Assembly: GCA_031763025.1 (NCBI GenBank)
Contig: JASSKH010000001.1
Span: forward strand, 17,337,142 to 17,401,141
Length of the DNA stretch: 64,000 nt
Origin: Macrocystis pyrifera
Lineage: Eukaryota > Sar > Phaeophyceae > Laminariales > Laminariaceae
Reading direction: 5' to 3'
Position numbers and translations under genes: made by a program. The notes beneath the pieces are model-generated. The model searched no databases and was not told the origin of the DNA. It saw only the letters and a program-made list of their open reading frames with translations. Shown one piece after another: positions 1,834 through 57,265 of this stretch (position 1 is its first letter; every line of letters begins with the position of its first letter).

Positions 1834-2180
1834 TAGTCGTAACTCAGACCCGGGGGTCGCATAGCAGGCTCCCCCCCCCTATATTATAGTATATATAAAG
1901 GTTGGGTTGACGTCGGCTGGCGACGACGCTGTAAAACACGCCTCTCACCGCGTGAGCTAGACAAGCAGGGTACTGTATTTTTTTATTTTTTTTTTTGCGG
2001 TCACCACGGCTGTCGGTCGAGCTGTAGATCATTTTTGTGCGGGGAGAACCCTAACTCCGCACAAGGGGGATGATAGTATCCCGTAGTATATACCTGGTAT
2101 ATGGGAAGGCACCCACGAGGCAGTTACATAGTAAACCAATTGCTGTCTCTGGAAGTGGCCACACCAGAAAATAAATCAAT

Positions 2181-2447
2181 TCGTTGACGCTGTCATCCAT
2201 ATGCAAGAAAATCCGCCTAACAAGCGGTTCTTATTATTAATAGTAGGATGCAGCTCACCCTTCATGCGTCTCGCTCAACACCTCACGCACGGCGCTTCGC
2301 GCTTGGTGCAAGCAACGTCTGCCTGGTCGATGAAATTCCGACGTGCTCCGTCCCGGCATCATAGGGATGCGAGGGTCTATGGTCATACGACTACGACCAT
2401 GGATGATAATGAGTACCAGCATAATGCGTACACCCCACCCACCACAA
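2181..2447 (+). repeat. Family-B dispersed repeat, copy 1
   Basis: It shares GACGCTGTCATC, GCGCTTCGCGCTTGGTGCAA and GGGATGCGAGGGTCTATGGT with copies at 21.6, 34.8 and 46.5 kb. Length is about 240 bp. No coding capacity or clear ends are seen; its class is unknown. Confidence 0.75.
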
Positions 2448-2454
2448 TACGGTA

Positions 2455-2559
2455 GTACGGAGGACCATAGTAAATGGGACAAAATTTTGTTAGTAAAAAT
2501 ACGGAAATATATAGGTTTTAGTGCGCACCGTAGGTGTTATTTACTATGGTCTTCCGTAA
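2455..2559 (+). mobile_element. TTACGGGGG MITE, copy 3
   Basis: It is a full-length copy with substitutions in both ends (GTACGGAGG and CTTCCGTAA), flanked by TA on each side. Confidence 0.88.
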
Positions 2560-4353
2560 TAGCCGTCTTTCCTGTTTCTGGCGAGAAGGGTTCAGCACTT
2601 CCTTCCCTCGTCGGCTCATCGCGTCTAATTCTAAGTGTGTTTGCTGTACGTATGATACGAGTATTAGTCAGTAGCAGGCGCTTTCGGCAGTTGGTGCCCT
2701 TCGAGAATTAAACAAGTTGACGGCGGAGAATCTATAACCCTCGACATGACAACGTATTCGAGGTCGCCCACTATCGACAGATCACTATTCATGGACAGAG
2801 TACGTAGATCACGGGGGGCCACCGGCGATACGAAACTACCGCCCAATTCCCAAACCCCGCGTCCTTGACGGTGCTGCTGTTGCCGCTATATTCTGCTGCT
2901 GTGCTGTTGCCGAGCTGTGCTGTTACAAGAGGCAGCACGCAGGTGCGCGTTTGCAAGAGGCAGCAGGCAGGTGGGCGTTGGTTTGTGCTGTTGCGTCAAC
3001 ACCGGGTTGTCCAGCAGGGAAGCCATACGCAGGCTGTAGCGCTGCACATCACTATACAACATAAATACGGGATACATATGAACATCACATGATGATGTGA
3101 AATGTGGACAGCTAAAAACTGCCGGGTGCTGGGTGGGTATGATGACCTTGTATGAAATATGGCATGACGTGCGTCGATCGGGGCGGGTCCGCCGGTGGTG
3201 GCGCGTTCAAGCATATACAAAGAGCAGTATCAGTATATGAAGTACCCGTAGCAGTGCTGATAGGCACAACAGCAACAAGGAACAAGGCGCAAGAGCTCGT
3301 GGGACCCTACGCGAGTCGTATGGGGAGCATTCAATTTTATGAACGAATGTCCCGCCAAAACTACCCGTGTTTATGGCGGGAATTGCGCATCGATCGGTGG
3401 TGTACAGCAGTAGCAGAAGAGAGTTGAGCGTCCACAGTTAGTCCACAACGAACGGAGTATCATTTACGTACTCGTACTATATATAGACTTCGAATACTTT
3501 GCCGTCGACGAACTGCGAATACCTTCCCACGAGGAAAGAACGACACTTTCTGGGACATCCGACCAACATTGAACCTACCGCTGCTGTAGTCTATGTACCA
3601 CATGGCATATTTCCCCCGGTAGTTACGAGTGCAAGCGGCCGACGTGGACCGGTATGGAATACATAGGTCCAGAGCTGCTCTTACGTACTGGTACGCTGCT
3701 GCGTGCGAGAGCGAGTACCAGTATAGTCCATACAACCGGGTTGCGCGTCATCGGTATGCAAGCTTGCTCTGCACCTCTGGGGAGCCTACTGCTCTACATA
3801 CGTACGTTATGCACTGCTGTAAGAATGTACCTGCTGGTAGCCCTCTGCGTAATCAAAGTGGTATTTTTATGTTTTGTACTGAATAAGGACGGTAAGGCAT
3901 GGTCTACGAGGTATACTGGAGCAGGACAATTATTATGTACACCATGCATTCTATACGTACGTACGTTACAGCAGTAGTTCAAGCGAACGCGAAGCTTGCC
4001 CTGGGGTACTTTGAACAAAACGACTCACACGGGTATGTATCATACGTACGGCATGCGGATGATCAAGCACTACATATGAAGCAGTCAGGGGCTACTAACT
4101 CGTACCTTTAGGTTGCTTCCGCGACCCGCGACGCCTTTGCCAGCGGCAAGATCTACGTATACCTGGGCTCGTACTGCTGCTGTGTAGCTATCTATGCCCC
4201 TGGGTGCGACCGAAGGTACAAGTTGTCCCTGAAGATAGACGCTCGTTGGCGACTCCAAAACATGAGCAACAAAAGCACGAGTTCGTGTAACATATATGTA
4301 GTCCCAGTGACGGCTCATCGAACAATGCGCTTTAAGATATCGAAACGACTTGC

Positions 4354-4903
4354 CTCTGAATGGCGCTCTCCAGCTCATCGGTGGGTATCGACAGGAGGTT
4401 CGGATCGAATTGCCTCAAGACATGGCTTTCGGCTCGAACGACTTCAAAGACTGCGTGGCTTTCGCCCCCCCCGAAGGTATCAAGCTCCAGCACGGCCGCT
4501 CGAGTAGCAGTCGAAGACGCCGCATACGCCCTGGCAAACCAGTAGGTATCCTCGCTACCGCTTAGAGTGCCCCCCGTGTCCGTCGGCGCGAGCCTAACGC
4601 TGGGAGGGCAGTGCTTGTGCTGGATTGAGATCGCAGACACAAGCCTGCGCAAATCTGCTTGCGCAAGGCATCGTAAGACACTGCTGTTGGGGCGTCATCC
4701 GCGGGTGTTGGAGAACGAGGGATGCTACAGTCAAGTCTTCGGCGATTGGCTTTGCGAGACACGAGGAAAGCAGCCTCGCGGAAGAGCTCTTCCCCCGCGC
4801 CGATATCTCTAGTGGCGAACGTCCCTCGACCAGCGATGTCGGACGCTCTGACGTCGCAGCTGTAGCAGGTCTTCTTGTTGTTCATGCTCTTGCTGGCCGA
4901 CAT
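4354..4903 (-). CDS. SMYD-like SET-domain methyltransferase, N-terminal exons
   Basis: The minus strand encodes MSASKSMNNKKTCYSC, then VRASDIAGRGTFATRDIGAG and EELFREAAFLVS, the GRG.FA...I..GE..F.E start of a SET domain. I chose the ATG at 4,903; in-frame ATGs at 4,924 and 4,966 are alternatives. A second frame continues with WFARAYAASSTATRAAVLEL and ends DELESAIQ-AG at 4,354. The two frames are offset. One reading is a 62-nt intron (4,681-4,620, GTGTCT...CCAG), which restores phase; a single-base error is equally possible. The exon ends at AG|GCAAGT, the textbook context of a GC donor, and its two leftover bases plus the first base of the exon at 356 make AGG. No MYND zinc finger is visible between the SET halves. 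Exon boundaries are inferred from phase, not transcripts. Confidence 0.7.
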
Positions 4904-5505
4904 TTTCGTTAATTTTTTTTTCATTCGGGAGTTCCACAGTATTGAGGCGTCAATGTAAAGCACCACAAGAGTTGGTTGCGTGGAAAGGAGGTTATTATCC
5001 TAGCATAGGTAGTTGTCGAAGTTTTGTCCCCGAGGCTTGAAGGAGAACCGGGGTGGCGCTACTCTCCCGTTCGGAAGGGAGTAGATCTCGCGCTTAGGTG
5101 CTTAACGGGTTCCACTTGAGTTAGCTCTCCCCCGCCGCTTCAGGTTTCCGATTTCTTCCCGTCTTCAAAAATCCTGCCTGTCTTGTAGCGCCCGCCCCTC
5201 CTGGCCGTGCAGCAGTAAAACCCTCTCTCGCGAAGGCGTCGTGCACGCGTTCGGAGGCACGCGACTGTTCTCGAGACGGAGGAAAAAACTCGCTGTCCGA
5301 GAGGAACTGCTCTAGTTTTTGCGAGCATTCGTCCATCCACCTCACCATTCGACTTTTTTGTTGTCCGAGATCGATCGTACCCGAGCGAGGAGGGACCTGG
5401 GAAGGAGGGGCGTGTTCCTCCCTCTCGAGCGGACGGACCGGAAGCCTATAACGCGGAGCTCTGGGCGCGCCGGAAGAGGACTGCGGTATAGCCGGCTACA
5501 CCAAG
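4904..5505. promoter_or_regulatory. Divergent intergenic region between SMYD-like and PH-domain genes
   Basis: The two start codons face away from each other about 600 bp apart, so this segment should hold both promoters and both 5' UTRs. It is GC-rich on the PH side and has a poly-T/A stretch beside the SMYD start. I see no clear TATA or initiator. This is a position-based inference. Confidence 0.4.
5121..5348 (-). CDS. Possible small ORF or 5' exon, 75 aa, unknown
   Basis: This minus-strand ORF starts MVRWMDECSQKLEQFLSDSE and stays hydrophilic and charged, unlike the Cys/Leu-rich random ORFs around it. It lies between the divergent SMYD-like and PH genes. It could be an upstream exon or uORF of the SMYD-like transcript, or chance. 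I do not recognise a domain, and no convincing donor joins it to 4,903. Confidence 0.25.
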   Translation of the reverse strand: MVRWMDECSQKLEQFLSDSEFFPPSREQSRASERVHDAFAREGFTAARPGGAGATRQAGFLKTGRNRKPEAAGES

Positions 5506-5530: not shown

Positions 5531-8500
5531 GTGAGGGTGATGTCGTTCCCCGTTTTCAGCGGGCCCGGGGAGGCAATGCGGGTAGGGTTCTCCTTCGGCC
5601 TATTTACGCGGCACGATGATGGCTAAAGCGATGGTCAACGGGATGTGAAGTACCTGGTATATATTCAATTCTCTACTCTGTCGGGTGGCGCGAGTGCTTC
5701 GGGGCAGCTTTTGTCGAGCCCCGAACCTACCCAGCAGAGAGTCGCCAGCGTATGCTGTCTCCTCCCGAGAAAGAGAGCTGTTGTGCACACTGAAGAGGCT
5801 GGAAGCTTGTGCGTCAGTTGCTTCCCCCCCCCGTCCAGGTGGTTCTGATCGAGATGATACTCATCTCATCACGGCTGGAGCAACCAAAAATACAAACACA
5901 GACCCTCACGATTTGAAGCACCCATCTCGCTCTTGCTCGTTTCCCCTGTTGTCTCTAGTTGTTGTATTGCTGCCACTGCTCTGTTTGTTCGCCTGATTCG
6001 AATCAGTCTATTATTAGTTCTATTAAAATACCAAAAATAGTTAATGAACTTCGTGGTTCTCTTCGTTGTTCGTTAAGCAGCACACAACCCGACGCCCCTC
6101 CCCCCTCCCCCTCTATATCCTCTTTGAGACACTTGCCCACTACACCCCCCCGCCGCCACAGCTCCCCGTGATACCTTGTAGATCGGCCTTGCTTGGGGCC
6201 TGGCCCCCTGCCCCAGGTTCGGTCTCATGCCCCTATACCCCCCCTTGGGGCGTGGGTGGTGATTCGCGAGAACTTTCGCTGCCCCGAACACGCCCGAAAT
6301 ACCTGCGACGAAATATTACCAAAACACTCCAAAAGGATAAAAACTCCCAACGAAATTTTCTGAATTTTGGCTTTTGTTCGGTCCGTCCGTCTCCTTTCAC
6401 TTCACGTCGTGCCTTGTGTATGTTGAGAGTTTTAATATCAAGAGTTAATTTTGTTCGTTGTGTTCTTGTCTTGGCCCTCCCCTCTTTGCTGTCGTATCAT
6501 ATTTTTTTTGCTGGTACAGGTTGTGTACCAGATATTTATATATACGAGTTCGAGGTGACTTCGTATCATAGTAATTCTGCTACCCTGTGTTGTACTGGTT
6601 GGTCTCTTTTTGTCTTTCTCGACGTCTTCATTCATGTACCAGGGTAGTAGTCGTTGTTGCTGGTTCTGCTTGTGGGATCAGTCGATCATTCGGCGAAGAT
6701 TTCCCTACACATTTTTTTAGTATTTTGAGACATTTTCTTTTGAAAACCAGTGTGGAAAATTTGGGCTGTTTATTTTGTTTGTTGGCGAGGCAATCGTATC
6801 AAGTCGAAAACGAAGGCCCGTCCGTGCGATACTTTGGGCTTGTTATATACCAGGTACCTCGTAGGCGTGTCGAGATGTGCTACGTACGAGTATTGATAAT
6901 AACACAAGAACAGGGCAGGGAGGGGGTGGGCAACGACTACCAGGTGTGATGGGAAAAAAACGAAGACATGACACATGATGGGGATCACAAGCTCCACAGG
7001 TATCAGGTACGAGTACTCGTACCTTTTTAACCCCGGTTACCCGTATGTGTGTGTGTGTGTGTTCCTCACATTAAACCGTTCTTCTTCTCGTCGACATCGG
7101 TTACCCGTATGTACCTGGTACCTGACTCGTACCTTGTACATAGCATTTGCATTTGCTGGTATATTCATAGCGTATAGCATCAAAAAGCAGCAGATGCCGA
7201 AACAGAAATAGAAACGGAAACAGAAACACGAGCTGCGGCAACAGCAACAGACACGTATCATATGATGGCAAGCACGAGGTAGTGTGTGACGTGAAAGTTT
7301 TAAACTGGTGTAAAAAATCGAACCGAAACGAATTGCTCATTAATTGAGTTTTCCTATTGTGAACACGCCACGCTTACGAGTACGAGTGCGCGGAGTATGT
7401 TGGCCACAGGAAAAAACAGAGCACGGACGGACGCGTGAGTGAGCGGTTTCGTGTTTTTTTTTCTCTCTTCCTGTTGGTGCGATTTGGTGCCTCGTTATGT
7501 TCACTTTCATCTCTTCACTCGCCATTCAATTTTCATCTCTTCACCGCACGATTTCGTAAGGGTGCGGCTTTTTGTGGCAGCCATCTGGCGGCCATCTAAA
7601 CAGCTCGGCTTGTGGAGGGTGGAGGGCGTGTTTGGGATTTAACCGGGGGTCTGCCGCCGACAAAGATTCTGCCCAGTGCATGCGGACACACATGAACAGG
7701 CTTGATAATTTTTTCATAATAATTATGACTTTTTGATTGTGTGCTCGTACTCTTGAAGCAAGATATAGTTCATGTACGTAGCTGTCGCTATTAATAGGGC
7801 CTCGCACATGTATCGTCAACTTGTCTGTGCTTTGGGTGGTGACCAAAAACGAAAAACAAAATCAACTAAAAAATGTAACGAACGTACGAAAAGCAGGACG
7901 TGCAACAACTGCTGTACTTACGAGTACCCGAATGCCGATCACACCCACCCTACTGGCCACGGTTGAACTGCCCGCCGCCTCACCAGGCGATCACCCTTAC
8001 GTAGTCCCGCGCTTCGGCGAACAGCCGTACTGTCCTCGACTCGCTACACCTCCCAAAACCTCCTCCGCTGTACGTATACTGGTACAGGGGTAGGAACTGT
8101 TGAATACCCAACCAAGTGTAAAGTTTGTTCGGGGGTTAGAGGTTTTTTGTAGGAGGCGTTCGCTCGTCGTATTACGAGTGATCTCTGGCCAGTTGAGATT
8201 GTCTGCACTTGCGACCTGAACTCCGACCTCTAAAAGTGCAAAAAAGTGATGTGTTGATGTACCCCATGGACTCTTTTGGCACATGGGCCACGATTTTCTC
8301 TTCCGACCGCGGGTCTGTTCTCGCGCTCTCGGCCGCGGGGCGCGCAGGGGCCCCACGTGTATGGTGCAAGTGTGGATCCCGGCCGGGCTCCGTGATGAGT
8401 GCTTTGGGCGTTCAAATTCGCGAATATCTCGCAGAGTAATCGCGGGGAGGCGTTCCGCCCAGCCACAGCCAGGCAGGACAATGGAAAACCGACACGAAAA

Positions 8501-8872: not shown

Positions 8873-8873
<1 letters not shown>

Positions 8874-8912
<39 letters not shown>

Positions 8913-8977: not shown

Positions 8978-9419
8978 ACCTCATCCCATGAACACTTGCT
9001 TTGGATTTCACAAGCACCCGCCCATAATACAGTCTAACAGCAGCAGCGCACCTACTGCTACCTCACAGACGCTCATACGTATGTGCACGGGAAGAATGAC
9101 TGGTGTGTTCTGTGTGTGTTAGCCCGTTTCAACCTTGGGACGGCCCCCGTGATTTCAAGTCAGCCACATCCATCCCGAAGGGGACCTTTTGTACTACTGC
9201 TGTTCGAAATGGTTTCGACGTTTCGTTGCATATTATATTCATATTCATTATTGCGTAACACGGTGCTCTGTTCCATAATCCCGTCTCCCTTTTGAGCTGC
9301 CCCAAGCCCCGAAACGCGTTTGATATCTCGACATTTTCATGTACGATTTTTCGATATTGATCGAGATGTTCCGATTACTCATCGTTGTGGTTCGGATACA
9401 TAAGACTGCAATATTAATA

Positions 9420-9532
9420 TTACGGGGGGCCATAGTAAAACAGGACCAAATATTGTTAGTAAAAATACATAAATATATACCAGGTAGGTTTTTATGTATG
9501 CCATAGGTCCTGTTAACTATAGACCCCCGTAG
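9420..9532 (+). mobile_element. TTACGGGGG MITE, copy 4, with an internal 7-bp scar
   Basis: It is full length and directly followed, after a single TA, by copy 5. Compared with copy 5, its core has an extra CCAGGTA after ATATATA, which creates TACCAGGTA. Confidence 0.9.
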
Positions 9533-9534
9533 TA

Positions 9535-9639
9535 TTACGGGGGTCCATAGTTAACGGGACCAAAATTTGGTAGTAAAAATAGGCAAATATATAGGTTTTT
9601 ATGTACGCCATAGGTCCTGTTAACTATGGACCCCCGTAA
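9535..9639 (+). mobile_element. TTACGGGGG MITE, copy 5 (back to back with copy 4)
   Basis: It is full length in the same orientation as copy 4, with TA at 9,533-9,534 shared and TA at 9,640-9,641. Confidence 0.9.
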
Positions 9640-9702
9640 TAGTGTCAATAGATACATTGTGAAATACATACCGGGTGCCTGGTATCGTACTACAGCAGCA
9701 GT

Positions 9703-11314: not shown

Positions 11315-11857
11315 ATCGAGACCACGCTCGCGTTGGCGCGGCGGCCGTTGACCTTGTTAGTATTAATAGTATTAATAGTTGCTCTGACATAAACAAGGCC
11401 AACCAATGAATGCATATATTTTATTTGTACCAGTTTCCTAAATCGGAATCCATTGATTATAGATGGTCCTCACGCATGTCTCGAGCACATATTTGTGGAG
11501 CCTTAAAACTAGAAGAATGATCGCCAGAAATCACGGCTCAAACGCTTCCCATAATAGTTGGTCTAAGTCAGGGAACAGAAAAGCGTTCACCGATAATATG
11601 CGGCGGTATTATTCAACACTCGTACGTACGATATGTATGTCTTTCCGGTCAGTCTTGGAAGACTCTTTGGTGTTCTTTTTTTTTTCCGGCGTCAACACCC
11701 AGCACCCGGAGTAGTATTATTCAATAGTAGATATCATACACTTTTTTCTTTGGTGGAGGGGGAATATTCCTGGTATCAGTACAAGAAGGGGGGTGCTTGG
11801 TGCCTGTTTAGTGACTGCACCGCAGCAGAAATTATTTGGCATCCTTGTTGTTGCATA

Positions 11858-11936
11858 CCGGTCTGTCCGAAAATATAAGAACCTTTTGGTTTAACAATTA
11901 GTTTAAAAACGGTTCTTATATAGTGGGACAGAGTGG
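11858..11936. mobile_element. 79-bp CCA...TGG-ended MITE, copy 1
   Basis: The inverted ends are CCGGTCTGTCC...GGACAGAGTGG with inner AATATAAGAACC/GGTTCTTATAT, flanked by TA on both sides. The right TA is immediately followed by CCTGGTA, so a scar word abuts the element. Confidence 0.8.
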
Positions 11937-14024
11937 TACCTGGTATGTTGTTGTGGACAGAAGGCAGTGTATATATGAAAATGGTCAATCAAGGCTGCTG
12001 ATGCATTGAATAGATTTGGTTGATTTGATCCTGATAGTTGGCCGTTCGTTCGATCCCCTCGTCTCTCCTACGTAACTACTGCTGGTGTTGTACGTACTGC
12101 TTCAACATATTACTCCATTCTATTTTTACTTGTACAGCCAGCCCTATTAATAGTTTACGTACGTACTGCTGCTGTAGTACAGCAGTACGTAGTGGTCCAG
12201 TCCTTCTATCGTGCCGGTTGCCTGGTACGGTATACAGCAGTAGTAGTTCCTGTGGAAGCGCTTGGCACGAATGGGATTGACCAGAGTGTGGTGGTGTGCG
12301 AAGTAGGGTCGGTTGCCACTATTAATATTAATAGAGCGCCCGTATTGTTCACTGGCGCATAACGGTACTAGAGGAACCGCTATTAATAGTACCTTGTACC
12401 GCAGCGTTACGTTCACCAGCGAATGCAAGTTTATATTTCTGGCGTCGCCAAAAAATAAGGACAAAACTAAGGACCCCGCTCAAGATGGCGTAAGCCTTTT
12501 TTTTCTTGGTTCACAAGCTGGTTTTTCACGCGGCGTTCGTACATCACATTTTTCACGGAAATCACATTCATTCTCTGAGGCGGAGCCTCGAACACGCATA
12601 CCAGGTATATATCACTCCGTCCTCTACACCTTTTGTGATGCACTTGTACTAACTGTGCACGCATCTAAATTTGTCTCTATTTGCAAGTGATTTGTCCACA
12701 CCACGGGAGTACGGTCCTTGATACATGATGTGTTGAGGCAAGACCGCTCACTTGGCGGGGGGGGGGGGGAGGGGGCGGCTGTTCAACGGTGGCCAGTGGG
12801 GTGGTGTGTGATTCGCCCTCGAGTACTTGGACAAGAATCAGCAGCAGCAATTAATGTACTCAAAAGGAAAGTTTTTGCATGTTCTACGTAACTTTTCGTA
12901 TCAGTGCTGTATTCGTACGTTTCGTGCGTTTGTCGCCTTTGTTTTTTCATGTTCATTCCACGGCAACGCACACAAGTTGACGACACAGCAGCACTTGTTT
13001 TACATGCCCTGCTGCGCTAGTTCCTAGCGACAGCAACTCTCCGGGGTACGGCTGGTTTGATACGACCGCGTTTGTCTTCACCATGCCGTTGACTCGGACG
13101 ACAAACGACAAACCACGCCAGCAAGCAGCGAGCAGCTCTCTACGTTTTTTTCTGTCGTTTACTGCCGCTGTACTACCGTTTTTTTTTTCTTCTGGAAAGT
13201 GTTCCGGACCTTCTTAGAACAAGCAAACGTAACGTAACAGGTACACAGCAGTAACAGGTATCGTGTTGCAACTTTTTTCTTGGAATTACACCTTTTTTGA
13301 CACCACCTCTATGCGTGGTGTCTAGTGTCTAGTCAGCCAATTTGATGAGCACGAACGGAAAGGAAAGGGAAAAGGCTCGATTGGGGCCTGCGGGGCGGCC
13401 CAAACCCCGCCTGTCCACGTCTCTCTGTTTTGTTTTTGGTTTAGTGCGCCGTCTGTGCGCAGAACGCACATGCTATTTTATTTTGTTTGTGTACATTGCT
13501 TGCGGCACCGATTGTTCGATCGAACATCGAGCGCATCCCGATAGGAAATCGATGACGATCTACGAAAACCTCTGTGAAACATCGCATCCATCTGACAGCT
13601 GAGAGTTGAGAGCAGCTTGTCCAAATCTGTTTCTCTCTTTTTTTTTTTTTTTTTTTGTCGCGTTCCCCTGATGATATATACGTGGTAAAAACACCGATAA
13701 TGGATGACGGATAATCCGATACGGTTGCACGGTGCGTTTGTTTGAGAGTTGACGGTTCGTATCCCTCGCCCTGAAGAGCTCCGAAGTGATGACCAAACTT
13801 CATAGCTTCACGTATTCCAGCAGGTACAGACAGCAGCATAAAGCACCGTATAACAAACACCCAACCAAGATAACACGCACCTCCTGGAAGACGAATTCAG
13901 ACCCTGTTTCCTCGAAAGCACTGGGCACTGGGCACACACAACGAAATAGTGGCTTTGGAATGACTGCTGTATGGTTGAGAAGGTTGCATGGACTCGCTCG
14001 GCGTATGTTGTATGTTTGTTCTTC

Positions 14025-16775: not shown

Positions 16776-17261
16776 TGTTGAAAACGACAAGTTGCTCCAT
16801 CTGCTTTGGCCGTCCTGCCGTCATGAGCTGCTGGTGATGAGGGTTATCACCCTAACTCTGTGTATGTACGACGTATAGTATCCACCAGTAGGCGTGAAGC
16901 ATGATAACATGATAAGCTACGCTATCCTAGCCTATTCATGAATTTTAGGATTTTATTAGGCTTCGCAGCTTGGGAGGGACTTGCAGTGGGGGGACTGGGA
17001 TGGCTGGCTGTTGTTTGTACACGTCTTTTTACATTTTGTATACGTACCAAGTAATTATAGGTATTAATAGCAGTATATTTTCATTTTTTTGTTTGTTTGC
17101 TCTCTATTTTTTTTGTTTCCTCTCTTTTATAGAATGTGTATGGCGTGAGTATGGACATGGCCATGGCATTGTCTATTCTGCTTACTGCATAACGAGATAG
17201 CGATGTACTGCTGCTGTTGTGTATCTCTGTGGCGTAGTTTTGTGACCACAGAACGTTTATC

Positions 17262-17360
17262 TCTCTACTCGTAGGATCGAAGAATCGGCACGGACACTAG
17301 TTGAGCTGGATGTCGACGGTTAGAAAGAACGGTTAACTGTGAAGGAACACACGCACAAGG
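17262..17360 (-). repeat. Family-D dispersed repeat, copy 2
   Basis: It is a reverse copy with AGAATCGGCACGGACACTAG and GAGCTGGATGTCGACGG, facing a forward copy at 17,650, so the two form a wide inverted pair. Confidence 0.65.
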
Positions 17361-17634
17361 AGCCCACCTGGGACCTCGGACCCAGCTATAATGTATCCAC
17401 TGAAGAAGAGACAAACGCAGAATTCGCGAACCCAAAACCTTGTACTCATGCGCAGACCGTGCAGCCGAGAATAGCCCACAAATATTGTACCTGGTATATG
17501 TGTCATTTTGGTGGGCGCTTGTCGTGCCTCGCCTTTCGGACGAAGCGCTTTGGAGACATCCATGTACAGTCAGCAGTAGCACGTATTGTATGTATGCACC
17601 CTACCCCAGCAGCCCTGCCTGCTTCGCGTGACCA

Positions 17635-18260
17635 AGCTGTGTGTATTCGTTGTTTTTACCCGTCGACATCCAGCACAACCAGTGTCCGTGCCGGTTCTTC
17701 ATTCCCAGAGAGAAACAAGTTCTGTTGTCACAAAAGTATACCAGGTACGCCACAGGGATACTACTTGCACATTGTTACCGGTACCCGTATGCAGTAAGCA
17801 CAGCAGTACTTGTAGACAATGCAATATGCCATATCGTACGTACTCCTCGGTATGTATGACAGGCACGACATACGTATTCTATGAAAGAGAGAAAACAAAG
17901 AAAAAAAAAAGAAAACGAACCGAAAGAGAAAAAGGAACAAAGAAAGGATGAAAAAAACTGCTGTCGTGCCTCCCCGCAGGGGATGTGACGGGCACTTGAA
18001 AATGCGTGCTGAAGAAAAGAAAACACCACTCCACTTACAAACAGAGTTAGAGCAACTACTACGGGGGACCATAGTTAATAGGACCAAATATTGTCAGTAA
18101 AAATTGGGAAATATATAGGTTTTTGTCTTTACCGTAGGTCCTACTTACTATGGACCCCGGTAATAAGAACCGAGGGAAAATGACAGGCAAACCGAAGCAC
18201 GAAGCCGCAGCAGTGTGTGGTACGAGTAGCGAGTAGCGTAACCAGGTTCTCCCTGTACGT
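17635..18260 (+). repeat. Duplicated segment, copy 2
   Basis: It is homologous to 14,025-14,920. It lacks the SINE candidate, carries the TTACGGGGG MITE at 18,059, and has extra TACCAGGTA (17,739) and ACAGCAGTA (about 17,802) at points where copy 1 has gaps. Confidence 0.75.
18059..18163 (+). mobile_element. TTACGGGGG MITE, copy 9, with a paralogous empty site
   Basis: It sits between TA at 18,057-18,058 and TA at 18,164-18,165 within a duplicated segment. The sister segment at 14,761-14,790 reads GACTAAGAACC with a single TA and no insert, which proves a TA target duplication. Confidence 0.93.
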
Positions 18261-19700: not shown

Positions 19701-19819
19701 GTAGTATTTGCACCGAATCTCGCTGAACCCGGATTTTGGAATTTGGCACTCGAGACGCCATAAAATGTGCACGTACCATATTTGTAGTTATCTGTACCAC
19801 AGCAGTGGTTTACGTACCT

Positions 19820-19935
19820 GGTACGTGCGCGTGTTCTTCACAATAAAACCGTTCTTTCTACCCGTCGACATCCAGCACAACCAGTGTCCGTGCCGATTCT
19901 TCAATCCTGTTAATAGAGAGATACAGGTTCTGCGA
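19820..19935 (+). repeat. Family-D dispersed repeat, copy 4
   Basis: It contains TTCTTCACAATAAAACCG, ACCCGTCGACATCCAGCACA and CAGTGTCCGTGCCGATTC. Other copies are at 14,040 and 17,650 (within the duplicated segment) and a diverged one at 50,450-50,535. No ORF or end structure is visible. Confidence 0.65.
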
Positions 19936-20119
19936 TTCACCCCGAGTCTACAACACAAAATTATTGCACGCATCATTAATACATGTCCTTTTTATTATAT
20001 GTTTTATGTACCTGTACGCAATACTACGACGCATATACATAAACTCTTGTCTAAATATTGTTATGTATACCAGGTATTAGGTATTACGGGTGTACAGCAG
20101 TCAACATGTTGAGTTTTCT

Positions 20120-37140: not shown

Positions 37141-40100
37141 GTGGGTGGGCCGTCCGTGCCTTTTCGTTTATTTTCATATAGGTCTTGATTTGAACAAGCA
37201 ACACTGCCTGTTTATTATTATAGTTTGTATCAGTTGGTCGCTCTGGTGTATTGTAGCGACGGCCTCCTGGGCTTGAAACATCAACGCCTGCTAGGTTCCC
37301 CGTGCTGCTGTGGTATTTTGACCTGGTACGTAGTGCCTATTAACGCAAAATGTATCGGTCTTGATTTGAGCCAGCACAAACGCCTGTTTCGTAGTTTATC
37401 GGTTGGCCGATTTGGTGTTTCTTGGCGAACGCCTCCCAGGCTTGAAGGGAAAACGCCTGCCGGGTACACACCTATAGCTGTGATATATATATATATATAC
37501 CTGGTATTTTTTTTTTCTACGCTGGGCATATATGTATACAAGGACCGCTTCGTCTTCATCTTTCTGTTGGGGATGGGAATGGATTCGTTTTAGTACCGGA
37601 ACAAAAACAAATGATGTCGCATGGTCAAGATCTAGGAAAAAAAAAACTGTAGGAAAGTAACCAATCCGTGATTGGAAAAAAAAAAAAAAAAAAAACTTTC
37701 GCCGCCAAAAATTGAGTTCGATGATGCTGCCTCTCAAAATTGAAATAAAAACCAGTGCCGGCATCGACGTGGCGGCGTTGAGCTATGTACGAGCTGAAAA
37801 AATGTCAGCCTTGGTTATTGCACTACACGTGCTGCAGGACAGCGCACAACCAGGCCCCCAGACCTTAGAGCAGCAGCGTAGGCACGGACGCGCGAGCGTG
37901 AATGTATCGCACGTTCCTGGTGGCCCCTTGGGATTGGCGGCCGGCAGCACGGGAATGCTGCCCCCCCCTGTGAAACACATTCTTGTACAGATCAAGTCGC
38001 AGGCTATGTGGTACTGGTTTACTGCTGTTGGGCACGTGTAAACAAGAACTTATCCACACACAGCATCGACAGTCGGCTTCGTGTTGCTATACTACACTTC
38101 GCCGAGACCGAGATTTCGACGGCGCTGCCTTTACCTACCTCCGTGGAAGCGCGCCCCACCTGTATCTCACGGGCAAGCTGTTGCTGTGCGTGCAGCTAGG
38201 CTGGAGCCTTGCGGCCAAGGAAGGCTGCATTCATCACGCGCCTCAAGTTCTGCATGGTGCTGCTGTATGTACTCGTACGTACGTATTACCACTATCCGGA
38301 AATGTAAAGAACCGCTTATCTTCGTATTTATGCTTGAACCATTCCTATATTTCCGGACAGAGACAGAGGGGTACGGTAGAGTATTTTTACTCGATCGTTT
38401 TCTCACGTGAGACAGCAGCGATGCGTTCGCATCTGAACGCTTGGGGTGACTCGCTTCCCGCTGCATCAAGGCCCGGTCACGGATGGTCTCCGCTGCGGCG
38501 ATGGCACCGGGTGTGATGGCAATCGCTCGGTGTGCGGCCGCGTTCATGTCTGGCACCGTTGTGGCCCGATACACTGAAGGCTGGACGTCCTTTTTTTTTT
38601 TTCGTCTCGAATATTTTTTGTCGAATTTCCCATGAATTATTGACTATTCAAAAGAGGATCAACTGCTGGAGAAAAGTTATTTACTTGTCGGATTCAATGG
38701 CGGGTCGCGTTGCTGTAAGCGCAAATTCCCGGCGGAGGGGCTGACCCGTATATATTTTTTTTAGTACTGTCAAATAGTTCTTCTATAGAGAGAACAATAC
38801 GAATACAACCTGAACAATCGAGTTTTCCGGCATACCTCCACTGAAGTAGACGGGGAAAAAATCTGCAGATCAAATGACAACCAATCACAGCCTCTTTCTC
38901 TATTGATTGGATATGTTTGTCGAACGCTATTATCCAATTCGTTTCCTGTGTCGAGCGATCAGGTATTTTGGTGCAACCGTGGATATATACAGTCTAAAAC
39001 CAAGTAAATAGGGTGGCGGCAGACTGTTTTCAAAATTATGTCTTTTTGATTTTTTACGAAAACGGTTTTTCGAGTAGACTGGATATTTTGTTACGCCTAG
39101 AACGAATCCATTCCCACCCCCAACTGTTTAGACACGCCCTCCTTTCGTTTCCGCCCTGAGTGGTACCTGGTACATGGTCTCTATTAGCGCATAATTTTTT
39201 GTTTCGTCGAAATAGAAACAAATGAGAAAAAGTTTGCCAGGTGTAGCTCTTATTAGTGCTGCTGCTGTTTCAGGGCGGTTTGTTTTTCACTCTGCGTGAT
39301 GCTTTCTCAACAGCTGTTTTTTTTCGTTTTTGTCTGCAGAAGAACGGCAGAAAAGGTTTCAAGACTTGACTCAGCTAATGTGTGTGTTTTTTTGACAGCC
39401 CACTTTTTTTGTTGTTGCCATGACTATTTTGGTCGTTGTGCAGGTCGCCCGTTTCGAGGTGGTCGTCCTTTCTCTTCGACCACCCCATTTTGTCCTCCTT
39501 CACGTCCCCGCCTCGCGTTTTCCAGCCTCCTCGTGTTAAGTGTCTTGTCTTGTCTTGTATGTTCTTGTCTCGCCTTGCCTTGTTTTATCTTGTCTTGTCC
39601 TGCCCTGTTTCATCGCTGTCTCATACATACGAAGCATTGTCCCATGTTGCCTCGTGGTGGTCTCGCCACATTGCATTGCATTTCGCGGTCGTAGGACAGG
39701 CTCCAATAACTCTGGAGTGAAAGGAAACCTCGGTAGAAATAAAAAACAAAGAATAATACACATGATAACCCTATTAATAGCACATGTACACCTCGGCCGA
39801 AAATAAAAAGTGAGGTCCACGCTCGTGCGTATCAGGTACATGCGGTACGCTGTACAAGTCGCCACAGAAACCGAGAAGACCGCATACTAGGCAGGAAAAA
39901 ATAGACAGGTTGAAAAAAAAAACTCGGACGTCGAAAAATCGAAAAACGAAGTCGAAAATCACAAATCAAAAATCAAAAAGGGAAGAAAAAGGTCTTCTAC
40001 TGTCGCGTCTTATCTCATGTTGTCTCATATTGCCTCATCGTTGTCTCCTCTGTGTTGTGGATGTCTCCTCGCATGTGTCTCATCGTTGTCTCCTCCTTGC

Positions 40101-40283: not shown

Positions 40284-40686
40284 AGCGCCGCATTCTGCCG
40301 ATGCAGCCCCTACTGTCAGGGCTGTTGAGTTGTCTGGCTCACTGCCGACTAGTCTACACCGCCGACTGGTTTAACAGCCGCCGAATAGCCTAAGCCGCCG
40401 ACTGGTTGTGAGTTGGCTGGGGTATTTTGTGCTGTGAGTTGCGGAGCAAAAGCTGTCAATAAGACCTCGAGTTGTCTGCTTTTACCGTAGCGCACGTTTT
40501 GAGTAGGCACAGGGGTGGGTGGTACCAGGTATCGCTTTTTCGACGCTCGTTTTTCTACAGAAGGCTAAGGTTGCTAATGCCGACCGAAACCCGTTTTCCG
40601 AAAGGGATTATGGTCGAGAGCCTTCCGAAAATAGTGACGTTCGACCTTTTGCCACCCTCACTTGTTGTTGAGAAATCGAGCGCTTG

Positions 40687-41775: not shown

Positions 41776-47735
<5,960 letters not shown>

Positions 47736-47783
47736 GGTGGGTTCGTCGGTAGACCGGTCGCGTTTGGGGGGGCGAGGCGCGCG

Positions 47784-47790
<7 letters not shown>

Positions 47791-47843
<53 letters not shown>
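47791..47843 (+). repeat. Poly-G run 55 bp after the MAP kinase stop
   Basis: An uninterrupted run of about 53 G. Further G runs are at 47,992-48,030, 49,620-49,640, 49,979-50,012 and 59,257-59,283. Confidence 0.9.
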
Positions 47844-49977: not shown

Positions 49978-50014
<37 letters not shown>

Positions 50015-50196: not shown

Positions 50197-50564
50197 GGGA
50201 GGTGTCTGATCTGTACGTAGCAAGCACATATTATCCGGTACATATTTCCTGGATTGGGTTCGATCTGTCCACTGCAGCTCCTGCACAGTTAGCTGAACGT
50301 ATCACATCACGAATCCAGGGAATATTTATATATACCAGGTACGTCTGTACGTACCTGGTGCGCGAGCTCTCTGGAGTGGCCAAACCACAGACCAAAAACG
50401 AAAATAATAGTAGTAGTAGGTAGTAATTGCGGATTGTACGTGAGTTCTCTTTACATACATCAAGCCGTTCGAACTTTCTTTCTACCCAATTACACCAGTG
50501 TGTTACACCCAGTGTCCGTCCTGACTCCTTATTTTATTACCAGGTATATCCTAGAGAGATACTA

Positions 50565-51133: not shown

Positions 51134-53845
51134 TAAAAAGAAAAGGATATACATGCTCAGGGGAACAGATCATAACTGCTGCATGCAGGAGACAAAACAC
51201 GAAGGAGAGGAAGATACCGGCATAAGGACGGCGGCGGTGGGGGGAAGAAACAAAAGCGGGGAACAAGGCATAAAGCAAGTCTTGGAAGAAACAGAGCAGA
51301 GAGAAAATCGTAATATAATAATACAAACAAGGCGGTGATGGTAATACTATCATGGGCTCCCTCCGCCTATAATAGGCCACAAAACCGACTCGGAGACCTT
51401 GCCACACCCCCTCTCTCTGCCGTCTCGTTCCTACTCTCGCCAATAGCGCCAATGCTGCCTGCCGCTGTCCGTTGCGCTTGCTCCACCATTGAACAAATCA
51501 AACAAAAAAAACAAACAAGAAACTACTTGAATTCAAGGCCTAGTCGGTATAAAATTAAAGATCTTTATTTAATGACGGCGGTGGACACTTCATAACTGAC
51601 GTAGAACTTTCTCAACTTTTTTTTTTCGCCTGGTTTTGGTGCAAGATACTCTCGAGAATTTTACCACCTGGTTTTAGTGGGGTCGAAAAAAGATATAACG
51701 GCAGTTTACTTCATGATCCATGATGAGCAAAGACGTCCGGACGGACAGCACTTTCACCCCTTGACAGACGGCAACTTCGCCTCGACATGCCTTGACTGAC
51801 ACCCACACCACTAGGTTTTAGTGCGGAACACTCGGCCCTACACCCTTGACAGCGCACGTTTTGCGTTGCTTGACATGTCTCCTGACATTTTTGACTCATC
51901 ATTGATTGGGTAATATTATAACCTGTACGAGTACCTGTACCAGGAATCGATCTGCACCCGCCCCCGACGGCACACAGCAGCAGCAGCAGCAGCAGCACAA
52001 CCTCTGCCTTCCTTCCACGCGGGCACAGAGCTTTCGCTCAGAACAGGCAGAAAAGGTGAGCTTCATGGCAAGCAAGTAGCGCGCGCGACGAGGGTATAGC
52101 GAGATGAAGATTCTTCGTTACTTCTGTACGGCTGGGTTGGACAGACTTCGTACCACCGGTAGAAATAGTCGTACATTTCCCTGTTTATCTCCCCCACTCC
52201 CTTGTTCGATGCAAATCGACGAGCATGGGGATGCCGAACCCTCAGCGCGATAAAAAAAGAGAAGGCACGTTATTACGGGGGAGGGAGGTACGTGCCGGAG
52301 GGGAGAGGGGCTTCGCCTGTGACCGCAGGGCTTGCCCGGAAGGCGGCTTTGGGTAAAACCTCGTATATACGAGTTCAGCTACTGCTGTGGCAAGTAAAGT
52401 GATGATGCAAAAAAAAACTGAACACAGCTGCTGCAGCAGCGGCAGCAGCAAGCAGCGGTATCATAACTTCCAACGCCTCCAGCATCATCTACCGGCATCT
52501 CCCTCTCCCTCCCCCAGACAGAGACAGCAGAGTAAAACCGTCATCCCCAACGGCAAGATATAGAGCGAAAAAACAGCAAACTTGCACGGGAGCACAGAGA
52601 AAGATACCTGTTTGTGCGTATACTGCTGTTGTTGTCGATTGATGGAGTTGCCTCCAGCGCACGTAGCATCTGCGCTGCTGATGGTGGCGGTCTTTGGGCA
52701 GAGCAATGCCTCGGATTGTCTCGAGTCTCCAGGACATGCATTCCGCCACGCAAGCACGCAGAAAAATATACCGATATCATCCCTGGATCACCCACACGTC
52801 GCTTTCAGCACTTTTTATGTGCACGGTGATAGTTTGGCCTGGCGGTGGTGGTGGTTGGTTGGGGGGAACAAAAAACCAGCCCCTTGAGCGTCTTCAGGAC
52901 CACGCAGAAGCAACGCCCCTCAAAATAACATAACGGACGTCATGAGACAGTTGGAGGCGGGTAGAGACTACCGACCGTCCTGTTGGCGTCGGCTATTCTA
53001 TCTTGAGGGGCCTTGGACAGTCAGTGAGACAACAGACAAAATACGGAGGGAGCGACGACTACATTACTGTTGTAATTCGAAATCAAATCGAGCGCCAAAT
53101 CGACTTCTCTGTGACGGCGGCGGGTGGGTGCTAATCATAGCACAATAAAAACAGGACCGACCGTGTTGTGGCCTGCTGCTTGAAGGCCACGCGACGAACG
53201 CCTGCTTTGCCCTGTAGTTACGGATGGATGCACATGCAGTAGTATACTCATTGCCTGCGATAATAGATGTCGCCTTTCGTTGCCAAGAGCGTCGCGCGCC
53301 ATGGTCGTGTCGCCTCATGCTCACGGAAATAGGCAGAGCCCTGTAGCCCTGTAATCTGCCGTTGAAAGATGTGCAGTGCAACAGCAGTGCAGGTACAGCA
53401 ATAGTAGTACGTCTAACGCTTGGAACGTCCTAGTATTTGATACCCTTTCCCTTCGTGGTTGTATTATACCGGGTGCGTACGTGTGCCTATTGAATGATTG
53501 CTTTCCTTATTTTTTTTCAGTTTAAGAAACAGGATAGATACTGCGGTACAGCACAGTGCAGGACTCCTACTACTACTACTTTGTACTATCATGCTGCAAG
53601 CATGAAACGAGCAATAATAAGAAAGGCAGGCTGGGATTGACAGGAAAAAATAAGAAACTCGGGGGTCGTTATAGAGTGGAAGTTTTTGGTGTAAGAACGC
53701 ACCCACTCTTAAATAATAACTCCGCCCTGAAACGCCTTTCCTGCTTCTTACCACAGCAGTACAGTAGGTGTCCGGTACTCCTATACTGGTACGCCCGGTC
53801 AACTTGGCGTCCAGGCGTCCAGCTCAATGTCTTTAGTGTTTTTCA

Positions 53846-55690
53846 GGGCTTTTCGCGGGTCAGGTCAATCCTCACGGGTTGGGTCGGGTCGGATCAGCTG
53901 ACCCGACCCGACCGCGATACCCGACCGCGATATTTTGAAAGCCTCTTGACACGGTCCGACCCAACCCGGCCCGCGAGATTTAAAAAACTGTTGACTCGAC
54001 CCGACCCGACCCGTGAGATTTGAAAACCTCCTGACCCGACCCGACCCGACCCGTGACATTTGAAAATCTCCTGACCCGATCCGACCCGCGAGATTTCGAA
54101 ACCTCCCGACCCGACCCAACCCGACCCGCAACCTTCTGATTGACCCGTGAGACACGGGTTTCATGCGGGTCGGGTCACCTTGACCCGCGAGACCAGTGAT
54201 CTTGACACGCAGGTTCGAACTGCGGATCCGGCCAGTGGGTCGACATTTAAAAAACAAATTAATAAGATTTTTTCAGGGCTTTCGCGAGTCACGGGGTGTT
54301 TAGAATGTCACGGGTCGGGTCGGGTCGGGTCAGGAAGTGCTCAAAATCTCACGGGTCGGGTCGGGTCAAGAGGTTTTCAAATCTCACGGGTCGGGTCGGA
54401 TCGGGTCAAGAGTTTTTCAAATCTCAAGGGTCGGGTCGGGTCGGGTCGGGTCAAGAAGTGATGAAAAGCTCACGGGTCGGGTCAGGTCATGACCTGCGAG
54501 AAACGGGTCACTCGCGGGTCGGGCCAGCGTGACCCGTGAGTTCTTTTCTGCTGACCCGCGGGCCGGACCCGCGCATCCGGCCCGCGGATCCGACACTCAA
54601 TACACTTCCCGCTCTCCCAAAGGCTTTTCTCGTACAAATACTCAATAATACTCCTTTGGTATATTATTCAAACATTATTACACTGCCAAATCCATATACG
54701 CATGCCCGCATCCGTTTATACCCATTACAGCCAGGCCACATGTCGCTTGTGGGCACAAAAATGAAAATTAAATTGTTCTTGAAGTGTCGACCCACGGGCC
54801 GGACCCGCAGGTCGGACCTGCGGGTCAAGATAAATAGTCTCGCGGGTCAAGGTGACCCGACCCGCATGAAACCCGTGTCTCACGGGTCAATCGGAAGGTT
54901 GCGGGTCGGGTCGGGTCAGGAGGTTTTGAAATCTCGCGGGTCGGGTCAGGTCGGGTCAGGATATTTTCAAATATCACGGGTTGGGTCGGGTTGGGTCAAC
55001 AACTTTTTAAATCTCGCGGGTCGGGTCGGGTCGGGTCAAGAGGCTTTCAAAATCTCGCGGGTCGGGTCGGGTCAGCTGACCCGACTCGACTCGACCCGAA
55101 CCGTGAGATTTGACCTGACCTGCGAAAAGCCCTGGACTTTTTGTGCTAGCAGCGATATGTGGCCTGGCTGTAGTGGGTATGGATGGATGCGGGCATGCGC
55201 ATATGAATTTTGCGGTGTTTTAATGTTTGGATATGATACCAAAGGAGTACTATCGAGTATTGGTAGAGGCCTTTGGGCAAGACAGCGGGAAGTGTTTTTA
55301 GTGTCGAATCCACGGGCCGGATGCGCGGGTCCGACCCGCGGGTCAGCAGAAAACAACTCGCGGGTCCTGCTGGCCCGACCCGCGAGTTACCCGTTTCTCG
55401 CGGGTCATGACCTGACCCGACCTGTGATCACCTCTTGACCTGACCTGACCTGACCCGTGAGATTCGACGAAATCTTGACCCGACCCGACCCGACCCGTGA
55501 GATTTGAAAAAGATTTTTGACCCGACTTGACCCAACCCGCGAAATTTGAAAACCTCTTGATCCGACCCGACCCTACCCGCGAGATTTTCAGCACTTCCTG
55601 ACCCGACCCCACCCGACCCGACCCGATCCATGACATTTTGAACACCACGTGACCCGACCCGCGGGTTGGGTCATGACCCGCAAAAAGCCC
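53846..55690 (-). mobile_element. GGGTC-rich hAT-like element, outer copy
   Basis: It has inverted ends CAGGGCTTTTCGCGGGTC...GACCCGCAAAAAGCCCTG and subterminal GGGTC arrays on both arms around a non-repetitive spacer. The spacer half at 55,145-55,300 is the reverse complement of the inner copy's spacer at 54,596-54,760, so the outer copy runs in the opposite orientation. The inner copy interrupts it. CAGGG ends and terminal GGGTC arrays resemble non-autonomous hAT elements known from plants. Confidence 0.7.
54283..55131 (+). mobile_element. GGGTC-rich hAT-like element, inner copy with 8-bp duplication
   Basis: It starts CAGGGCTTTCGCGAG and ends TGCGAAAAGCCCTG. The 8 bp outside are GATTTTTT (left) and GACTTTTT (right), one mismatch, matching hAT target duplication length. 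Its unit is a variable GGGTC run followed by AAGAGGTTTTCAAATCTC. Confidence 0.75.
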
Positions 55691-56014
55691 TGTTTTTTTC
55701 CGACCTTGATATTGTATAGGATTTAGAGTTGGTCCCACCGTTGAGCTGTGTTTCTTAACCCAATTTTCTTGTTGTTTGTGCCGATCTTGAGCCCACTTTT
55801 CTCAACGTAGTGTTTTTTAACTGGAGGCGCCCACTGTACACAACCGAACATTCTATGCATCGGACAGATCACCTGCTCATCATCACATTCCCGCGGGTAG
55901 AGAGATACTATACTGTACTCTACATGCGTTCTTCCTGATATGTACGTGGGAGCCCAAATCATCTGCGTGGTTTATTTACGTACTACTGCTGTGCTGCTGT
56001 ATGGATCTTAACCG

Positions 56015-56214
56015 TTTCAGGACTACAGTCCCGTTTTGGGGACGAACCAGTCAAAAGCTACATTTTACAGTAGTCCATAGTTAATAGGACCTACGGTACA
56101 CACAAAACCCTATATATTTCCCTATTTTTACAAACAATATTTGGTCCTGTTAACTATGGTCCCCCGTAATACAAGCAGTTTATCCCCACAATCGGGGCTG
56201 CGCCGGTCCTAAAA
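56015..56214. mobile_element. CTGCAGTCC-ended MITE, copy 5 (interrupted)
   Basis: The left end is CAGGACTACAGTCCCG and the right end, CTGCGCCGGTCCTAAAA, has drifted. A TTACGGGGG MITE is nested at 56,065. Confidence 0.75.
56065..56169 (-). mobile_element. TTACGGGGG MITE, copy 20, nested in a CTGCAGTCC element
   Basis: It is reversed; the left end has decayed to TTACAGTAGTCC and the right end is intact before TA. It interrupts the element at 56,015-56,214. Confidence 0.85.
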
Positions 56215-56339
56215 GCTCGCTCGTACACAGTGCACAGGCCTTACACAACAAGCATCTACTGCTCTGCCTATCTCATAGCGGGTCTCATACCGGCAGGGTG
56301 GAGTCTACTGCAGTGTAGTGTAGGTGATTTTATGTCGTG

Positions 56340-57265
56340 ACCTATCTGATCTATCTGATCTACCAGGTATCTGATCTGTCTGATCTTTCCGAAGAAGACT
56401 ACAAAAAGTTTGAATAAAATATCTGAGAGGATTCCATACCTCGATTTGAGTATCTAGATCTTTTTGGATAGATAGATCCTTGATCTAGATGGTCTGGGGG
56501 ATCTAGATCATGTTTTCCGGTTGAGATCTGTACGATCTAGATGTTTCACACATGTTTGCCTTGGTAAGATCTGTATGATCTATTACGGGGGTCCATAGTT
56601 AACGGGACCAATTTTTGTTAGTAAAAATAGGCAAATATATAGATTTTTATGTACACCATAGGTCCTGTTAACTATGGACCCCCGTAATAGCTAGCCCTTA
56701 CACAAACGTTTGTCTGGGTGCGAAGTATGATACAGATGTTTCGCACATGTTTGCGCCTGGGTGGGATCTTGTATGATCTATATCTTTCACACATGTTTGT
56801 GTGGGATCTGTATGATCCGCGGGATCTAGATAACATTTCACCGATGGATCTGTATGATCTGCAGGATCTAGATCATACTTGACTGATGGGATATGTATTT
56901 TTCTAAACATTTCACACAGGTTTGTCCGGGTAGGATCCGTAGTTTCTGGATACTTCACACATGTTCGCCTGGGTTGGATCTGTGTGATCTGTATCTTTCA
57001 CACATGTTTGCCTGGGTGGGATCTGTATGATTTGTATGATATGCACGTGTTTACCTTTCTGGGATCTGTATGACCTGCATAATTGATCTGCACATGTTTA
57101 CATGATTGATCTGCACATGTTTACCTTTCTGGACCTGCATGATCTGCATGATTGATCTGCACAGGTTTCGCGGGGAAGGATATGTACGTATACAGATCTT
57201 ATGCAAAACTTTTCCGTAGCGGACGAAAAGGATCTATCGTAGATGCTCTAGATCATGATCTGTCC
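56340..57265 (+). repeat. GATCTGTATGATCT / CACATGTTTGCCTGG minisatellite
   Basis: Variable units mix GGGATCTGTATGATCT and CACATGTTTGCCTGGGTGG. A TTACGGGGG MITE interrupts it. Related GATCT-rich patches are at 32,565-32,815 and 36,420-36,465. Confidence 0.75.
56583..56687 (+). mobile_element. TTACGGGGG MITE, copy 21, in the GATCTG minisatellite
   Basis: It is full length, flanked by TA, and inserted within the 56.3-57.3 kb repeat array. Confidence 0.9.

Follow-up and report, generated by a model that had tools for sequence, protein, structure and literature searches.

Excision of transposons of the Tc1/mariner type leaves 3′ overhangs of 2–3 nt (PMC3878927), and in the passages cited here their footprints are stated to be 2–4 bp long (PMC7913693), those of Passer measuring 0–4 bp (PMC9976928). 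For Sleeping Beauty and Frog Prince the footprint is listed as C(A/T)GTA (PMC3878927, Table 1), and the target consensus given for Sleeping Beauty is ANNTANNT (PMC2756404). The Stowaway/Osmar5 footprints of grasses are described as short and varied, with fragments of 1–4 bp at one locus, and re-insertion of Stowaway beside an old footprint is also described (PMC1925063). For rice, 94 putative excisions are described, of which 8 are given as perfect (PMC4423477). Non-canonical footprints are described for Hsmar2 (PMC3770610). These published footprints come from assays (PMC7913693, PMC9976928), from single loci (PMC1925063) or from a two-genome comparison (PMC4423477), and our literature search found no paper on transposon excision footprints in brown algae. 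Among the papers listed for the two 9-mers themselves, a wasp monograph and a leukaemia gene-expression paper contain them, which has no bearing on whether such a scar has been described. Here we analyse the word TACCWGGTA (W being A or T) in a 64-kb stretch of the brown alga Macrocystis pyrifera (assembly GCA_031763025.1, contig JASSKH010000001.1, positions 17,337,142 to 17,401,141, forward strand). We refer to this whole stretch as the window, and every count given below was made in it.

The original prediction had placed TACCWGGTA at 27 sites against about 0.5 expected, and all of its coordinates proved correct. Dinucleotide-preserving shuffles gave a mean of 0.53 occurrences and a maximum of 2, and none of the 100 shuffles reached 27 or more. 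When TA-N5-TA words were counted against a background, as had been proposed, TACCWGGTA ranked first among 512 distinct words (27 occurrences, compared with 9 for the runner-up and 0.8 expected from an order-3 Markov model). On the plus strand the central base is A in 15 sites and T in 12, the two forms being reverse complements. The centre is strictly A or T, since the count of TACCNGGTA is also 27, which leaves none with C or G. Enrichment grows as the TA borders are included, from CCAGG (147 versus 122 expected) through ACCAGGT (48 versus 9.9) to TACCAGGTA (27 versus 0.8), and the other symmetric outer borders gave counts of 0 for G..C (0.6 expected), 2 for C..G (0.7) and 1 for A..T (0.4). 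In successive 8-kb bins along the window the word occurs 4, 3, 9, 5, 2, 1, 2 and 1 times. No site lies inside the four Pfam-matching stretches to which our exon check was limited (2–442; 4565–4999, where the match falls below the curated cut-off; 60554–61012; 62340–63179). The sites, each an exact match to the word, are as follows; MITE1 and MITE2 are miniature inverted-repeat transposable elements (MITEs) described below.

2091 to 2099: TACCTGGTA
5651 to 5659: TACCTGGTA
6848 to 6856: TACCAGGTA
7112 to 7120: TACCTGGTA
9478 to 9486: TACCAGGTA, a clean 7-bp insertion at a TA within the MITE1 copy at 9418–9534
11937 to 11945: TACCTGGTA, adjoining the MITE2 copy at 11856–11938, with one TA common to both
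12599 to 12607: TACCAGGTA
17488 to 17496: TACCTGGTA
17739 to 17747: TACCAGGTA, in a dispersed repeat, with an inverted paralogue within 17201–17360 that lacks the word
19815 to 19823: TACCTGGTA
20068 to 20076: TACCAGGTA
22321 to 22329: TACCTGGTA, paralogue comparison not clean
22434 to 22442: TACCAGGTA
22455 to 22463: TACCAGGTA
23031 to 23039: TACCAGGTA
23660 to 23668: TACCTGGTA
25225 to 25233: TACCTGGTA
26993 to 27001: TACCAGGTA
27518 to 27526: TACCAGGTA
29591 to 29599: TACCTGGTA
29672 to 29680: TACCAGGTA, paralogue strongly diverged
37498 to 37506: TACCTGGTA
39164 to 39172: TACCTGGTA
40523 to 40531: TACCAGGTA
50333 to 50341: TACCAGGTA
50538 to 50546: TACCAGGTA
56361 to 56369: TACCAGGTA, breaking up a short array of tandem 9-bp units

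At two of these sites the word is cleanly inserted at a TA, adding 7 bp. The first lies in a copy of MITE1, a high-copy MITE family with about 105 bp between its TAs, the ends TTACGGGGG...CCCCCGTAA and a TA target. We recognised 17 near-full-length copies between 1393 and 56689 (for example at 9533–9641, 44056–44164 and 56581–56689), 78–98% identical to a working consensus; six fragments among the 23 matches were left out. The scarred copy and a full copy lacking the word are described by these lines:

9418 to 9534, plus strand: MITE1 copy hosting the putative scar at 9478, ends TTACGGGG, TA target
44056 to 44164, plus strand: full MITE1 copy with 98% identity to the working consensus, putative scar absent

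The copy at 9418–9534 reads AAATATATACCAGGTAGG, and exactly AAATATATAGG is found at the same place in 9 of the 16 other near-full-length copies. The remaining 7 carry substitutions near the site, and the word is present in none of the 16, the copies at 56065 and 56581 being among the unscarred ones. Within its host copy the word is the sole insertion of at least 3 bp, and when 7 bp are removed the alignment is gap-free over the stretch shown and scores 176 bits, compared with 159 bits for the intact sequence. Since one of 17 MITE1 copies contains the word and the other 16 are without it, we conclude that 7 bp were gained at a TA at 9478 and that both TAs were retained. At the second site, 56361, TACCAGGTA breaks a tandem array of approximately four units of TATCTGATC, and deletion of 7 bp restores a perfect 9-bp unit; our list of repeats in the window does not include this array. 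In both cases a TA flanks the 5-bp insert on either side, as opposed to the single TA of the unscarred MITE1 copies and tandem units; the TA duplication of a Tc1/mariner-type footprint is therefore seen at 2 of the 27 sites.

Our paralogue tests left out self-overlapping matches, and with them the tandem case at 56361, and the comparison of bit scores required matches reaching at least 15 bp past the junction on both sides. As a control, we compared 61 other TA-N5-TA sites with their paralogues. The intact sequence aligned better by at least 5 bits in 50 of these, the deleted version in 5 and neither in 6, and four of the five control sites favouring deletion were not 7-bp gains. Three further word sites (17739, 22321 and 29672) could be compared with a paralogue and are considered below; for the other 22, no usable comparison was present among the matches listed.

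The sequence context of the 27 sites resembles that of a transposase target. Position +1 outward from the word is a pyrimidine in 50 of 54 flanks (approximately 34 expected from all TA dinucleotides in the window, p = 1.5e-5) and position +3 is T in 29 of 54 (approximately 16 expected, p = 5e-4), both p values being uncorrected for the six positions. The pattern, A-N-R-TA-Y-N-T, fits the Sleeping Beauty target ANNTANNT. Moreover, one-mismatch relatives of the word number 47 versus 16.0 expected, with an excess at 7 of its 9 positions and none at the centre (0 versus 1.1). An excess of near-relatives is what decaying scars would give. If it does consist of decayed scars, a per-site divergence of about 11% follows from the ratio of 31 to 27. 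The mean difference of the 17 MITE1 copies from the working consensus is about 13%, and on this reckoning from counts the scars appear similar in age to the MITEs of the window.

We consider that TACCWGGTA is the excision footprint of a TA-inserting, TA-duplicating cut-and-paste DNA transposon or MITE family, and put the probability of this at roughly three in four. The parent element, a 5-nt stagger and the repair route we infer as follows. The element would begin with CC(A/T)GG at both ends, and its transposase would cleave the 3′ strands at the very edge of the element, with the 5′-strand cuts lying 5 nt further in. Each flank would then retain its TA and a 5-nt 3′ overhang, CCAGG (or CCTGG), and the two overhangs could anneal through four G:C pairs around one A:A (or T:T) mismatch. 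Ligation and mismatch repair would yield TA-CC(A/T)GG-TA, a net gain of 7 bp. Cohesive annealing of this kind would explain the invariant CC and GG, the strict A/T centre, the similar numbers of the two forms and the single dominant product. Among 21 other inserts between TAs (joins of CCA, CCT, CCAGG and CCTGG ends, some of them mutual reverse complements) none was comparably enriched, and CCATGG, CCTAGG and CCAGCTGG were each found 0 times.

MITE1 itself is associated with a second word. TATTAATA occurs at 19 sites versus 1.0 expected from shuffles, an excess of about 19-fold, one of the sites being:

12145 to 12152: TATTAATA site, putative MITE1 scar

The outward flanks of TATTAATA read G, T and A in 18, 19 and 20 of 38 cases, and those of MITE1 insertions, for which the preferred target flank is TAC-TA-GTA, in 17, 14 and 15 of 28, so that the target preference is common to both. 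For the MITE1 count, the boundaries of 17 copies were set by hand and 28 of 34 flanks were used, namely those ending in an intact TA. Since some TATTAATA sites adjoin or overlap (11361/11370 and 12320/12326, and the left TA of a MITE1 copy forms the end of the site at 9412), the flanks of the word and of MITE1 are not all independent. When 4-bp joins were tested for the TTA... ends of MITE1, TTAA was found 19 times versus 2.0 expected, GTAC once versus 1.7, and TTAC/GTAA, which is one word on two strands, 0 times versus 2.8. Shorter joins also lie above expectation (T, 216 versus 155; TT, 51 versus 33; TA, 96 versus 43), which AT-rich simple sequence could explain. In the clearest paralogous pair for TATTAATA (2235 and 34814) the word is present in both copies, and the window yielded no clean pair with an empty site. 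Overall, TATTAATA is probably the excision scar of MITE1, and the two would form a second scar and element pair in the window. It might form from TTA overhangs pairing by their TA, or by retention of two bases of each MITE1 end.

Back-to-back TATTAATA pairs look as if a target had been reused. In the MITE1 copy at 1723–1835, extra bases at 1806–1813 form TACTAGTA; they are aligned as a 4-bp insertion and are possibly a small TA-flanked gain. An exact-pattern search for MITE1 gave 0 matches in viral contigs and 0 in prokaryotic genome contigs. The word TAGGWCCTA (7 sites versus 0.28 expected) was set aside as a scar, as it resembles an internal MITE1 stretch, TAGGTCCTA.

Two further words are candidate scars. 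TACGAGTA/TACTCGTA is present at 17 sites versus 2.7 expected, with C at the outward +1 position in 19 of 34 flanks. TACAGCAGTA has 11 sites versus 0.5 expected and shows the same outward GTA as MITE1, with 9 of 22 at each base; it is the weakest candidate because microsatellite-like CAG sequence is common in the window, and it might itself be CAG-repeat sequence. For TACGAGTA/TACTCGTA, one inverted repeat is of note:

33978 to 34668: TA-flanked inverted repeat of 687 bp, beginning CGAG, with CGAGCTGGGCC ends

A number of observations weigh against reading TACCWGGTA as an excision footprint. At 17739 the site CAAAAGTATACCAGGTACGCC is matched by CAAAACTACGCC in the paralogue; the indel falls at the right place, the paralogue lacking the word at a TA, and the length difference is 9 bp instead of 7. 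At 22321 the intact word aligned better (46.4 bits, compared with no hit after deletion) and the paralogue has other bases, while under other alignment settings the deleted version aligned too, with a gap beside the junction. The high divergence of the paralogue at 29672 makes that comparison unclear. The five comparable sites thus comprise two clean insertions, one that is off by 2 bp and two unclear cases. A paralogue spanning the site at E 1e-3 was found for only 2 of the 27 word sites versus 61 of 285 other TA-N5-TA sites. Furthermore, the control site at 37221–37229 (TAGTTTGTA) differs by a net 7 bp from its paralogue at 37353–37460, with no gaps in the stretch shown and several mismatches at the junction after deletion; 7-bp gains may therefore occasionally arise by chance or from unrelated sources, and the case could not stand on 9478 by itself. 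Near-relatives show no excess at position 2 of the word (2 versus 1.6), and TACAAGGTA alone contributes 6 of the 47. Some minor joins show a slight excess (CCGG, 4 versus 0.94; CCAG, 6 versus 3.0; CCTG, 6 versus 2.9). The 5-bp footprint exceeds the 2–4 bp of Tc1/mariner elements, a size that is usual and not strictly defining, as well as the 0–4 bp of Passer. A single dominant product is itself unusual, because the rice excisions described are mostly irregular (PMC4423477). Finally, among 373 pairs scored in the window at distances of 40 bp to 8 kb there was no convincing inverted pair with TACCNGG ends; in the best pair 12 of the 20 following bases were common, in AT-rich sequence.

On balance, the interpretation is well supported in kind and falls short of the parent element, and we grade it as partly supported. 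The proposal that the word is the excision scar of a TA-targeting element agrees with the insertions at 9478 and 56361, the target context, the near-relatives and the second scar and element pair. The expected coincidence with 7-bp insertions in repeats was likewise clean at 9478 and 56361; it was off by 2 bp at 17739 and unclear at 22321 and 29672. The wider proposal in the original prediction, that such footprints litter the genome, stays a conjecture, our counts covering the 64-kb window.

The parent is hypothetical, since no TA-flanked inverted repeats with CCWGG ends were found in the window, and the scars may record the past activity of a transposon that is not found there. None of the 10 open reading frames (ORFs) scanned against Pfam matched a transposase. 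The candidate parent seen in the window is MITE2, which has two copies:

36010 to 36092: full MITE2 copy, 79 bp between TAs, terminal inverted repeat CCACTCTGTCCC, candidate parent
11856 to 11938: second MITE2 copy, ending at the left TA of the putative scar at 11937

An unlikely alternative, which revives the CCA...TGG version of the original prediction and differs from the footprint model above only in parent and stagger, is that the scars derive from a MITE2-like element with CCACTCTGTCCC ends, whose 3-nt CCA overhangs would meet at the last A (A:A) and be filled in to CC(A/T)GG. Overhangs of 2–3 nt are the norm in the Tc1/mariner superfamily (PMC3878927). The outward flanks of the copy at 36010, TCT and CAT, show the same Y (+1) and T (+3) as the scars do, the scar at 11937 adjoins the second copy, and the scars at 39164 and 40523 are preceded by GTGG, the last four bases of MITE2. 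However, on its left side the second copy is flanked outward by TGC, with Y and without T at +3, so that 3 of the 4 outward flanks fit the pattern if the 11937 scar is counted as one of them. Moreover, CCA overhangs have no complementary base and nothing would favour a 1-nt overlap; CCATGG, the product without overlap, is absent, and CCA/TGG alone is found 9 times versus 10.5 expected. As a source of the word, the predicted element with CCA...TGG ends is hypothetical: no element with CCA..TGG or CCWGG ends in the window could be tied to the scars, and MITE2, with only two copies seen there, is a candidate for this role.

The word might instead be a protein-binding palindrome, that is, a site with a regulatory or chromatin function that has spread across noncoding DNA and is maintained by selection. 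Its odd palindromic form, its W centre, the symmetric R..Y preference that extends to +1 and its absence from the Pfam-matching stretches would all suit such a site. We regard this as very unlikely, however, since in a MITE1 copy and in a tandem array the word adds exactly 7 bp and duplicates the TA, its excess requires both TA borders, and its one-mismatch relatives are in excess at most positions, as decay would give.

Micro-insertions of other origin, such as double-strand-break filler or target-primed additions that are palindromic by chance, could also account for 7-bp gains. The failure to find a parent element in the window and the net gain of other sequence at the control site 37221 are consistent with this idea. 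A constant 5-nt sequence between duplicated TAs in a transposase-like target context is nevertheless unexpected of filler DNA, which makes this origin highly improbable. The notion that the word belongs to longer dispersed repeats and was copied along with them is extremely unlikely: although several sites lie in or beside repeats at 9478, 17739, 11937 and 50538, the longer conserved repeat context that was looked for in the window was not found, the best flank-to-flank score of the 27 sites (57) being unremarkable beside the 35–134 obtained in 20 random samples, each of 27 TA-N5-TA sites, and the other 16 MITE1 copies lack the word found in the copy at 9478.

Other features of the window are listed here. 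The TA-flanked inverted repeats prove nothing by themselves, since a control with AT flanks gave 26 pairs versus 15 among the TA-flanked pairs listed.

27157 to 27233: TA-flanked inverted-repeat element of 73 bp
52380 to 53761: TA-flanked inverted repeat among the pairs listed
54649 to 55249: TA-flanked inverted repeat among the pairs listed
54726 to 55172: TA-flanked inverted repeat among the pairs listed
60554 to 63179, minus strand: element resembling a long interspersed nuclear element (LINE), with Pfam matches to endonuclease and reverse transcriptase

Pieces of a SET domain, one of them below the Pfam cut-off, were recognised among the 10 ORFs. Between 53898 and 55660, large inverted repeats are built from arrays of approximately 40-bp units in which GGGTC/GACCC is abundant, and very long pure runs of C or G are present at 44619–44671 (53 bases), 47785–47843 (59) and 49979–50012 (34).

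Returning to the footprint interpretation of TACCWGGTA, we suggest tentatively, as a possibility short of an even chance, that several TA-targeting families here each leave one near-invariant, self-annealing scar (CCWGG, TTAA and perhaps CGAG and CAGCAG). On this view the repair of excisions would be cohesive, with uniform products in place of messy ones, and the stagger of the CCWGG transposase would be 5 nt, above the 2–3 nt of Tc1/mariner. If this is true, the past activity even of vanished families would be readable from short words with target-preference flanks. With one scar per approximately 2.4 kb, past excisions could be counted as fossils independently of the copies that survive, and both the target preference of a lost transposase and the geometry of its overhangs could be deduced from sequence alone. 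Uniform scars would also point to unusually accurate end joining in the host. A warning follows as well, in that short over-represented noncoding palindromes may be transposon scars and not regulatory motifs.

TACCWGGTA works like a Tc1/mariner-type footprint, its membership of that family being putative. It shares with the TA-C(A/T)G-TA footprint of Sleeping Beauty and Frog Prince a TA target with duplication, an odd palindrome, an A/T centre and a target like ANNTANNT, and we attribute the A/T-ambiguous centre here to a mismatched overhang. In contrast to the 3 bp that lie between the TAs in those systems, the present word has 5 bp, and it is known from genomic fossils and not from an assay. 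The ends of Mos1-type mariner elements read CCAGGTG..., and a Mos1-like terminus starting with CCAGG would supply the footprint sequence, although no such element was found in the window. Like Stowaway/Osmar5 in grasses, for which short TA-flanked terminal-repeat fragments are described as left by MITE loss (PMC1925063), the brown algal sites may preserve such remnants, and the scar at 11937 adjoining a MITE2 copy may, by analogy with Stowaway, represent re-insertion beside an old footprint. The grass footprints differ among themselves at a single locus, in contrast to the one word found here at 27 places across 64 kb.

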